Assembly: GCA_030649995.1 (NCBI GenBank)
Contig: JAUSEV010000032.1
Coordinates: 1-46,241, forward strand
Source of the DNA: Candidatus Uhrbacteria bacterium
GTDB lineage: Bacteria; Patescibacteriota; Patescibacteriia; 2-12-FULL-60-25
Direction of reading: 5' to 3'
Length of the DNA: 46,241 nt
How positions within the stretch are numbered: the first letter of the stretch is position 1; each line of letters starts with the position of its first letter. The notes beneath the pieces are model-generated. The model worked only from the letters and a program-made list of their open reading frames with translations, searched no databases and was not told the origin of the DNA. Positions 38,690 through 42,006 of the stretch are shown in pieces. The translations under genes and the position numbers were made by a program.

Positions 38690-39055
38690 CTATTTTGCCA
38701 CCGCGTATCCCGTAGGCGCATCTAAAAACTCCATGTGATCGACCGGCACATATCCCAACGCTTTTACCTTTCCTTCCAATGAACGCAGGGTTTGCGCTTG
38801 AGCCGCTTGATTTTCCAACATGGACACATGTTCTTGCAACGCCTCGAGACGTTTTTCCAAAACACGCAGATGAAATCCTCGCGAAGCCGCCGCGTTGACC
38901 TGAAAAATATACACGCCAAAACACCCAAGAGTCGCTCCGAGGATCAAAATCGACCAAGCGGTTTTTCCGGCCTCACTCAACTTACGCCCAACGGGCATCG
39001 GCAAGTGTAATGTTTCGTGCGGTCGACTCATGGTGAGAGCAAAGGTTCGAGTCAT
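38690..39055 (-). CDS. ftsL: FtsL-like septum protein
   Basis: 121 residues from the ATG at 39055; another ATG at 39031 is possible, and the open frame further upstream is heptamer repeat. A short basic cytoplasmic part is followed by one membrane helix (about 34-54, WSILILGATLGCFGVYIF) and a coiled coil (about 58-95: LRVLEKRLEALQEHVSMLENQ), ending in a small extracytoplasmic tail with LGYVPVDHMEFLDAPTG. This is the FtsL/DivIC pattern. The position directly behind rsmH, where ftsL lies in other bacteria, supports the call; the sequence itself is fast-evolving. Confidence 0.78.
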   Translation of the reverse strand: MTRTFALTMSRPHETLHLPMPVGRKLSEAGKTAWSILILGATLGCFGVYIFQVNAAASRGFHLRVLEKRLEALQEHVSMLENQAAQAQTLRSLEGKVKALGYVPVDHMEFLDAPTGYAVAK

Positions 39056-39056
39056 A

Positions 39057-39119
39057 GGAATAGAGAATATAGAATATAGAATGGAGAATGGAGAATGGAG
39101 AATGGAGAATGGAGAATGG
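39057..39119. repeat. heptamer array AGAATNN between rsmH and ftsL
   Basis: Nine units: GGAATAG, AGAATAT twice, AGAATGG six times. It lies between the ftsL start and the rsmH stop (39121). Confidence 0.9.
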
Positions 39120-39120
39120 A

Positions 39121-40011
39121 TTATCGCTTCTGAATGGCGCGGAGTTTGGCGCTTCTGGCGCGGGGATTTATTTTTATTTCGGCTGGAGCGGGACACAGGG
39201 GCTTTTTTGTCAACACCTGAAATTCCGGCATGGATCGAAACGTGTGTTTGACGATGCGGTCTTCCAAAGAGTGAAAGGAGATAACGGCTAATCGCCCGCC
39301 GTTCGCGAGAATGTAACGTGAACCCTCAATCGCCTCTTTGAGCGCTTCGAGTTCATCGTTGACGGCGATGCGCAAGGCTTGAAAGGTGCGCGTAGCCGGA
39401 TGAATGCGTCCGCGCTCGTACGACGCGGGAACCGATGATCGGATGACCGTCACAAGATCAAATGTCCCGATGATGCGCGTGACGTTACGCGCTTTGACAA
39501 TACCTGCGGCAATGCGACGAGCGAATCTTTCCTCTCCATAATTTCGCATCATCTTTTCCAAATCTTGTTCGCTCCAAGCGTTGATGATGTCGGCGGCGGT
39601 CAGTCCATCCTCATTGGCTTTTGGACCAAAACGCATATCCAACGGTCCATCTTCCAAAAAGGACAAACCTTTGGCGCGATCCGCTAATGCATCTGACGAA
39701 AATCCGAGATCAAACAGAATTCCATCAAGCGGCGGGAGATGATGCTCGTCGGCGACGCGCCCCAGATGACGAAAATTTTCCTCCAACCCCTGCCAACGGT
39801 TACCAAACGAGGCAAAACGATCACCGGCGCGTTTGAGCGCCTCCCGATCAACATCGAGCGACCACACTCTGCCGTCAGGAGCGCAACGGCGCAGAAGTTC
39901 TTCGCTATGCGTTCCTCCTCCCAAAGTGGCATCCAGATATCGCCCACCGGATTTCACGTTAAGGACATGCATGGTCTCCTCAACGAGAACCGCTTGGTGG
40001 AGGGAGGGCAT
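39121..40011 (-). CDS. rsmH: 16S rRNA (cytosine(1402)-N(4))-methyltransferase RsmH
   Basis: 296 residues. The start HQAVLVEETMHVLNVKSGGRYLDATLGGGTHS carries the SAM-binding DATLGGGTHS (about 28-37). It continues with WSLDVDREALKRAG, DGILFDLGFSSDAL, LDMRFGP and NGGRLAVISFHSLEDRIVK, all typical of RsmH/MraW. It methylates C1402 of 16S rRNA in the ribosome P site. It follows mraZ with only an inverted heptamer array between (40015-40090) and is followed by ftsL, the conserved order of the division cluster. No Shine-Dalgarno is present. Confidence 0.96.
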   Translation of the reverse strand: MPSLHQAVLVEETMHVLNVKSGGRYLDATLGGGTHSEELLRRCAPDGRVWSLDVDREALKRAGDRFASFGNRWQGLEENFRHLGRVADEHHLPPLDGILFDLGFSSDALADRAKGLSFLEDGPLDMRFGPKANEDGLTAADIINAWSEQDLEKMMRNYGEERFARRIAAGIVKARNVTRIIGTFDLVTVIRSSVPASYERGRIHPATRTFQALRIAVNDELEALKEAIEGSRYILANGGRLAVISFHSLEDRIVKHTFRSMPEFQVLTKKPLCPAPAEIKINPRARSAKLRAIQKR

Positions 40012-40092: not shown

Positions 40093-40524
40093 TCAAACCC
40101 CCAATCCCCCCAATCGTTCTGCAATGTTGTTGCCCTGCGCTTCGGTTTGCTGCGCATACATCTTCCATGTCGCCGCATCCCAAATCTCGAGACGATTGTA
40201 GAGACCGGCAACCACGGCATTCTTACTCAACCCGGCATAGGTTCGCAGATATTCCGGAATGTTGATGCGACCGGATGTATCAATCTCGACTTCCATGGCC
40301 CCGGCCAGCATCAAGCGAGCAAAGGCGCGCGTGTCTGCCTGTGACATTGGCAGATTGGCGAGCTTGACCGCCAGCGTCTCCCATTCTTTCTTGGTGTAAA
40401 GGAACAGACTACGATCCAATCCGCGCGTCACGACCGCTCCCTCTGATAAAGACACGCGAAATTTGATCGGAATGGCCAACCGACCCTTGTTATCCAGCGT
40501 GTGATGATATTCCCCGATAAACAT
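40093..40524 (-). CDS. mraZ: transcriptional regulator MraZ
   Basis: 143 residues from the ATG at 40524. Two SpoVT/AbrB-like half-domains are visible: MFIGEYHHTLDNKGRLAIPI (1-20) and DTSGRINIPEYLRTYAGL (near 85-102), each with the DxxGRxxIP motif. MraZ is the first gene of the division and cell wall cluster and represses its own promoter. Four TGG repeats with 10 bp period overlap the promoter upstream (40581-40633), which is the site MraZ would bind. It leads rsmH, ftsL and the clp group. Confidence 0.96.
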   Translation of the reverse strand: MFIGEYHHTLDNKGRLAIPIKFRVSLSEGAVVTRGLDRSLFLYTKKEWETLAVKLANLPMSQADTRAFARLMLAGAMEVEIDTSGRINIPEYLRTYAGLSKNAVVAGLYNRLEIWDAATWKMYAQQTEAQGNNIAERLGGLGV

Positions 40525-40580
40525 GGGAGGGTTTGGTGATAAAGAGAGTTTATTTGACGTAGGAGGCGCGCCAAAGCATT

Positions 40581-40633
40581 TCCCACTCTTTGCCACTAGC
40601 TTCCATTTTATGCCACCATTCTACATCGGTCAA
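40581..40633 (-). promoter_or_regulatory. mraZ promoter with MraZ operator (four TGG repeats)
   Basis: On the minus strand TTGACC (40628-40633), exactly 17 bp, TAAAAT (40605-40610). Four boxes stand exactly 10 bp apart: TGGCA (40611-40615), TGGAA (40601-40605), TGGCA (40591-40595) and TGGGA (40581-40585). They cover the spacer, the -10 and the start point. MraZ of E. coli binds TGGGN repeats at the same 10 bp period. Confidence 0.82.
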
Positions 40634-40736
40634 AGACTAGAAAAATCAAAAAATTTCTCTCATCAGAGAGAAATAATCGTTCTTTTTCTGTTCGCATGTG
40701 GATAATCACTTTTCCCACTTTTTCAATAACGGTGAT

Positions 40737-40779
40737 AATGGTGTCAGGTCCCGATTTTTAATCGGGACCTGACACCATT
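40737..40779. repeat. perfect 19 bp-stem palindrome at the uvrC 3' end
   Basis: AATGGTGTCAGGTCCCGAT pairs with ATCGGGACCTGACACCATT around TTTTA. The GGTGTCAGGTCCC type is known as a dispersed repeat in other bacteria, some of it linked to REP-associated transposases. Here it provides the last 11 codons and the stop of uvrC. Confidence 0.9.
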
Positions 40780-42006
40780 TGCGAGCATCCCTTTTCCGCG
40801 TAACTTACGATGATACACAAGAGCAAAGCGATGCGCTTCGTCACGTACGCGGATCAAAATATCTTTATATGGTTCGCAAGCGTGACAGAGTTCGCGATTT
40901 TCCCTCGAACATACAAGATCGTTACGCTTTCGCTTTTCGCCTTTTGCAAGACCGATGACTGGAATGGAGGACGAAAGTGCCGCTTCGACCGCGTGCACTT
41001 GCGGCAAGCCGCCGTCAATCAAAATCAAATCAGGTCGCCGCCACATATGTTTAAAACGACGAATGATCACTTCGCGAATGGACGCGACATCGTTTGATCC
41101 GACTACGCTCTTGATGCGAAATTTGCGATATTCAGTTTTAGCCGGCGCGCCATTCTCAAACACCACCATGGAAGCGACGGATGAGGTGCCGGAGATGTGT
41201 GAGATGTCGTAGCCTTCGATACGGCCGAAGAGATTTACAGAAGGTAATACGTTATGAGGATCATTCTCACGTTTGAGAATTGCCACATCTTGAATGTGTT
41301 CGAGCGCAAAAATTTTGTTGCGCAAATGCGCCGCTTGCTCAAAACGATGATCTTTGGCCGCTCGGTTCATCTCGCGCCGATATTGACGGAGCAGTCCGTC
41401 TTTTTTTCCTTGAAAAAACTTTATCAGATCGCGAATGGTTTTGGCATAGGACTGTTTATCAATGGCGTTGATACAAACACCCGGGCATTGTTTTAGGTGA
41501 ACGTAAAAGCATGGTCTTTTTTGCCCGGACGAGCAAGTTGACCAAGGAAAAATTTTTCGAATAAGATCAAGCGCAGCACGCAACGAGACGGCTGATGTGT
41601 ACGGACCAAAAACCGCTTTGTATTGCCTGATGCTCCCCTCTTCCAAATCCGTCCCACGAATCAATAATGGTTTTGGAAAATCTTCTTTGGTGATCACGAG
41701 ATACAAAAAACTTTTATTGTCTTTTTGCAACACGTTAAACGGCGGCCAATAATGTTTAATGAGATTCGCTTCGACGATCAAAGCTTCGATGACCGAGCGC
41801 GTCTCGATGTAATCGATCACGCGAATCTGCGACACCATTTCTTGAATACGCGCGTCATGCGGGTGAGTAAAGTACGATGTCACGCGCCTCTTAATCGAAG
41901 TCGCCTTGCCCACATAAATCACCTTTCCTTTTTCATTCTTCATCAAATACACACCGGGGGAATCGGGCAATGTTTGATTCTTGAGTTTGATGGAGGGAGG
42001 GATCAT
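40744..42006 (-). CDS. uvrC: excinuclease ABC subunit C, C-terminally short
   Basis: 420 residues. The GIY-YIG nuclease opens the protein (GVYLMKNEKGKVIYVGKATSI, 19-39). A cysteine cluster (STCSSGQKRPCFYVHLKQCPGVC), the UvrB-binding UVR motif (NRAAKDHRFEQAAHLRNKI, about 212-230) and the RNase H-like nuclease (GYDISHISGTSSVASMVVF, LILIDGGLPQV, RDEAHRFAL) follow. Typical UvrC is about 600 residues and continues with two helix-hairpin-helix motifs after YHRKLRGK. This one ends MLANGVRSRLKIGT, where the last 11 residues come from a palindromic repeat (40737-40779). No helix-hairpin-helix coding remains downstream. It makes both incisions of nucleotide excision repair with UvrA and UvrB; uvrA is close by. 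Confidence 0.93.
   Translation of the reverse strand: MIPPSIKLKNQTLPDSPGVYLMKNEKGKVIYVGKATSIKRRVTSYFTHPHDARIQEMVSQIRVIDYIETRSVIEALIVEANLIKHYWPPFNVLQKDNKSFLYLVITKEDFPKPLLIRGTDLEEGSIRQYKAVFGPYTSAVSLRAALDLIRKIFPWSTCSSGQKRPCFYVHLKQCPGVCINAIDKQSYAKTIRDLIKFFQGKKDGLLRQYRREMNRAAKDHRFEQAAHLRNKIFALEHIQDVAILKRENDPHNVLPSVNLFGRIEGYDISHISGTSSVASMVVFENGAPAKTEYRKFRIKSVVGSNDVASIREVIIRRFKHMWRRPDLILIDGGLPQVHAVEAALSSSIPVIGLAKGEKRKRNDLVCSRENRELCHACEPYKDILIRVRDEAHRFALVYHRKLRGKGMLANGVRSRLKIGT

Follow-up and report, generated by a model that had tools for sequence, protein, structure and literature searches.

The DNA ahead of mraZ in this Candidatus Uhrbacterium (Patescibacteria; genome of 1.08 Mb, 99% complete) raises the question of whether the gene is controlled by its own product, and whether other regulators act on the same promoter. 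The window, that is the whole stretch of 46,241 nucleotides that was analysed, has the boxes TGGCA, TGGAA, TGGCA and TGGGA on the minus strand from 40615 to 40581, with an exact 10-bp period over a TTGACC-17-TAAAAT promoter, just as the original prediction described them. The segment 40581-40633 spans exactly the -35 element through box 4, and the boxes are placed at -5, +5, +15 and +25 relative to the first base of the -10 element (Table 1). The promoter pair was also recovered independently (10/12, 17-bp spacer). The window has a single instance of four TGGNA copies at period 10, and none of 100 shuffles has one.

Table 1. Coordinates of features at the mraZ locus, ordered from upstream to downstream (positions in the window)
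Feature	Position	Strand	Remarks
Single upstream TGGGA	40713..40717	-	102 bp before box 1; possible auxiliary box
TTATCCACA, exact DnaA-box consensus	40697..40705	-	adjoins the GAAC repeat
GAACAGAAAAAGAAC, direct repeat GAAC-N7-GAAC	40679..40693	-	probable LexA operator, 78 bp upstream of box 1
Hairpin and T-run, terminator-like	40653..40674	-	between the upstream module and the -35 element
-35 element TTGACC	40628..40633	-	mraZ promoter; most relatives have TTGACN, also 17 bp from the -10
MraZ box 1 TGGCA	40611..40615	-	within the -35/-10 spacer, directly before the -10
-10 element TAAAAT	40605..40610	-	17-bp spacer after the -35
MraZ box 2 TGGAA	40601..40605	-	shares the last T of the -10
MraZ box 3 TGGCA	40591..40595	-	near the inferred transcription start
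MraZ box 4 TGGGA	40581..40585	-	10-bp register with boxes 1-3
mraZ	40093..40524	-	143 aa, ATG at 40524; PF02381 twice, 2e-40; TIGR00242 1.4e-43, above cut-off
rsmH (mraW)	39121..40011	-	next operon gene; PF01795 1.5e-96
ftsL-like small membrane protein gene	38690..39196	-	after rsmH; start uncertain

The gene behind this promoter encodes a full-length MraZ with two MraZ-domain halves and a DxxxR motif in each (LDNKGRLAIP and DTSGRINIP), and both motifs are present in 183 of 203 relatives. The nearest named MraZ proteins are from Candidatus Uhrbacteria, Patescibacteria (82% identity), and a mycoplasma MraZ of solved structure is matched at ~1e-21. The ATG start is conserved among relatives. A longer GTG frame from 40596, which would overlap the boxes, is not taken as the start of mraZ. 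No Shine-Dalgarno sequence precedes this ATG (40525-40545, minus strand); a pyrimidine-rich CCCTCCC is found there, likewise in several relatives. A structured mRNA leader was rejected as well, since folding z-scores vary, no common fold was seen and the leader in the window is unstructured (z ~-0.1). One Patescibacteria assembly (JAHJFT) has two distinct mraZ loci (L114 and L154), representing either a duplicate or a mixed bin.

The genes that follow mraZ had been described as the division cluster, which overstates what is found. The order mraZ, rsmH and an ftsL-like gene is present, the product of the last giving a weak match to NCBIfam FtsL (1.4e-4, below cut-off). However, the genes further downstream are not division genes but encode a ClpC-like ATPase, a family-4 glycosyltransferase and a DUF192 protein, and ftsZ is located on another contig.

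Lack of the boxes in close relatives had been named beforehand as one result that would refute the prediction, and the boxes proved to be conserved. In each of the 35 family members whose upstream DNA is readable, both congeners included, at least three in-register boxes precede mraZ, and the boxes are kept while the leader from array to start codon varies from ~7 to 154 nt among family members. At least three in-register boxes were also found in 58 of 80 named loci and in 54 of 69 loci drawn phylum-wide. Among 54 upstream regions of 300 nt, comprising the window and relatives, the maximum of in-register TGG was four in 30 regions and three in 15 (45/54 with at least three). Markov shuffles of the upstream regions gave three in 0.8% and four in none of ~10,800, and the 54 regions had almost nothing at TGG periods 7-9 and 11-15 or on the reverse strand; a chance origin of the array is thereby rejected.

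Relaxation of both the third and the fourth base of the boxes had been proposed, and this holds for the fourth base (C, A, C, G) but not for the third, which is G in all four boxes of the window and replaced (TGT) only in box 2 of both congeners (L013, L022). A set of 58 mraZ sites was selected for TGG at boxes 1, 3 and 4. Among these selected sites the AG before TGG is conserved, with G directly before TGG in 90-98% at boxes 1, 3 and 4. At the fourth base, G accounts for 79% at box 4 but only 57% at box 3. In 7 sites, both congeners among them, TGT stands as box 2.

The array resembles the direct (A/T)GTGGGN repeats that stand before mraZ in E. coli, where the period is also 10 bp, the regulator is of the same family and rsmH is the next gene. 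The E. coli K-12 boxes are AGTGGGA, TGTGGGG and AGTGGGA, with TGG at +14, +24 and +34 alone when counted from the first base of the -10, so the array in Uhrbacteria is like that of E. coli extended two turns upstream and straddling the -10 element. In other words, the three E. coli boxes all follow the -10, whereas Uhrbacterium has four, two of them around the -10, and a relaxed fourth base: TGG is found in 4/4 window boxes but the G of TGGGN in only 1/4. The site is very probably the MraZ autorepression operator, and as such belongs to a known kind, with its placement shifted relative to E. coli.

For Mollicutes, the MraZ site is given as AAAGTG[T/G] repeats (Fisunov et al. 2016, as cited in PMC8475190). 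Uhrbacterium belongs to a different phylum but is similar to Mollicutes in its reduced genome, single target operon, RRTGG core and tolerance of T at the third position, and the conserved AG before TGG fits both the E. coli boxes and the Mollicutes motif. There is one clear site per genome, as in M. genitalium, where the sole copy of the motif is at mraZ (PMC8475190). Repeats in the mraZ promoter region PmraBc of Burkholderia cenocepacia are described as a putative MraZ site (PMC7761207); this is a likeness by description, and PmraBc differs in being betaproteobacterial and in belonging to a long dcw operon. When the whole 1.08-Mb genome was searched for three RTGG boxes at a 10-bp period, only mraZ and one site in another context were found. 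A wider MraZ regulon was rejected because this other match, at C34:3731, stands alone as a G-rich tandem-like stretch, and in relatives because the extra four-box matches are scattered.

It is highly probable that the four boxes are an operator for MraZ, which when bound would block its own promoter. MraZ would form a ring, like its mycoplasma relatives of solved structure. We infer binding, repression and the ring-to-box stoichiometry: the TGG boxes are one helical turn apart and face the same side of the helix, and each would be contacted by one of several adjacent subunits. With box 1 inside the spacer and box 2 overlapping the -10 element, MraZ on its boxes would hide the core promoter and start site from RNA polymerase, resulting in negative feedback on mraZ, rsmH and the ftsL-like gene. 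As far as sequence can tell, the conserved autoregulation that was originally predicted is supported by the array, its register, its conservation, its overlap with the promoter, its near-uniqueness in the genome and the identity of MraZ. The departure of base 4 from the E. coli TGGGN in 3/4 boxes, the TGT of the congener box 2 and the position of the array relative to the -10, unlike that in E. coli, speak against it. The site would represent an MraZ feedback operator with a single target, kept across Patescibacteria, which have reduced genomes with little known regulation, and the precise map of an array straddling the -10 is testable.

The promoter may also respond to more than MraZ. A possible addition to the MraZ operator, not a replacement for it, is that the promoter is a composite in which a LexA operator at ~-88 and a DnaA-box-like site at ~-103 stand at fixed distance from the MraZ array, LexA helping or hindering the promoter; the chance of this is put at somewhat under one half. 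The 15-bp GAAC-N7-GAAC, or a one-base variant, is found in 27 of 35 family members. It lies exactly 78 bp (23 members) or 79 bp (4 members) before box 1, and the distance is fixed despite differing upstream genes, among which uvrC is frequent. The family's mraZ upstream regions contain 22 copies of GAAC-N7-GAAC, and the remainder of the same loci has none.

A close variant, GAACAAAAATAGAAC (reverse strand), is located just upstream of the lexA ATG in the same genome. The variant recurs in the promoter region of a gene that matches Bro-N weakly. When scoring was based on the mraZ set, the sites reached values not expected by chance (~107 kb of genome scanned). LexA is confirmed in the genome by its DNA-binding and S24 domains. 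Alphaproteobacterial LexA binds GTTC-N7-GTTC (PMC8565304), and PMC7739468 (with its ref. 52) names Patescibacteria among the LexA systems that use direct repeats. The GAAC repeat has the same form as these operators and, in this genome, stands directly before lexA. The motif at lexA, the likeness to GTTC-N7-GTTC and the citation of Patescibacteria thus make a LexA operator plausible. However, a terminator-like hairpin separates the LexA-like site from the promoter, the site itself has no clear promoter across it, and it is absent from 8 of 35 relatives.

The hairpin is preceded immediately upstream by TTATCCACATTGGAACAGAAAAAGAACA, which is shared in the family and of which the 15-bp GAAC repeat is a part. 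The arms of the hairpin covary in 27 genomes, with 80% paired in register compared with 35-52% when slid and 0/1000 shuffles, and it may not be only a terminator because the T-run is missing in some relatives. GTGG is aligned at the position of the single upstream TGGGA in most carriers of the upstream module. From ~-88, LexA might help the polymerase, prevent read-through or regulate a very short RNA. The sequence pattern suggests a possible SOS input into the division operon. If true, DNA damage, through LexA cleavage, would change expression of that operon. That the division genes answer DNA damage, and perhaps replication state, through a rigid composite switch together with MraZ feedback is a tentative proposal, rated a little below even. 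The LexA-like site at fixed distance gives a concrete hypothesis linking DNA damage to division. No description of such a link in these cells was found in the literature searched, nor of a LexA-like site 78 bp upstream of an MraZ operator with a covarying hairpin, the 2017 Patescibacteria network paper lying outside that literature.

On one strand or the other, 89 of 190 mraZ upstream regions carry an exact match to the DnaA consensus 9-mer, with 112 copies observed against 4.6 expected from third-order Markov shuffles. It also stands beside other promoters of the genome and is therefore not specific to mraZ, and outside the family it is hard to tell from an MraZ box (GTGGATAA). DnaA of B. subtilis binds at the ftsL promoter region, and the operon concerned also encodes RsmH (PMC8203912, PMC11019786). 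A replication origin at the DnaA-like box was rejected, since the window has no skew switch there and dnaA is on another contig. In about one fifth of promoters (e.g. L017, L039 and L046), TGTGGATAA is found ~55-56 bp downstream of the -10, past the last MraZ box; upstream of Patescibacteria mraZ this sequence is either a DnaA-like box or an outlying MraZ box. At another locus (L264; G000 C28 ~60365-60386) there is an inverted pair of TTATCCACA on a contig with several such boxes, possibly a replication-related site.

Far less probable is that the main role of MraZ here is activation or neutral binding and not repression. Overexpression of MraZ in M. gallisepticum is associated with increased FtsZ (PMC8475190), which fits such a role. 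However, deletion of mraZ in M. genitalium de-represses the cluster, the mutant over-expressing it, and repression is also reported for E. coli (PMC8475190). The overlap of the boxes with spacer, -10 element and start site likewise favours occlusion, and repression by MraZ is the reading that is kept.

The register with the -10 element was studied in promoters called without reference to TGG, which gave 147 promoters from 190 distinct upstream regions. TGG peaks at -26, -16/-15, -5, +5, +15/16, +25/26 and +35/36 relative to the first -10 base, and is found at -5 in 119 (81%) and at +5 in 92 of these 147 mraZ promoters across the phylum. The downstream boxes keep the 10-bp step in the family, with a 1-bp slip after +5 in many other Patescibacteria. 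Among 607 control promoter-like calls elsewhere in the same loci, TGG is at -5 in 2% and the array is absent, by which caller bias and a general promoter motif are rejected. Boxes 1 and 2 do flank the -10 at fixed positions, as a core-promoter motif would, but to read the TGG array as a trait of promoters or base composition in these genomes, and not as an MraZ site, is hardly credible given this difference at -5 and the continuation of the boxes to +36 at helical spacing, in a pattern found essentially only at mraZ.

Upstream of the operator module, at 40737-40779, there is a near-perfect inverted repeat, GGTGTCAGGTCCCGAT...ATCGGGACCTGACACC, that contains the end of uvrC. Further copies are found in the same genome on contigs C12 (587, 1892) and C46. 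A RAYT transposase behind the repeat was rejected, as the genome has no Y1 transposase. The uvrC gene itself (40744-42006) is short, encoding 420 amino acids with no Pfam domain past the RNase H domain, and its last codons derive from the inverted repeat.
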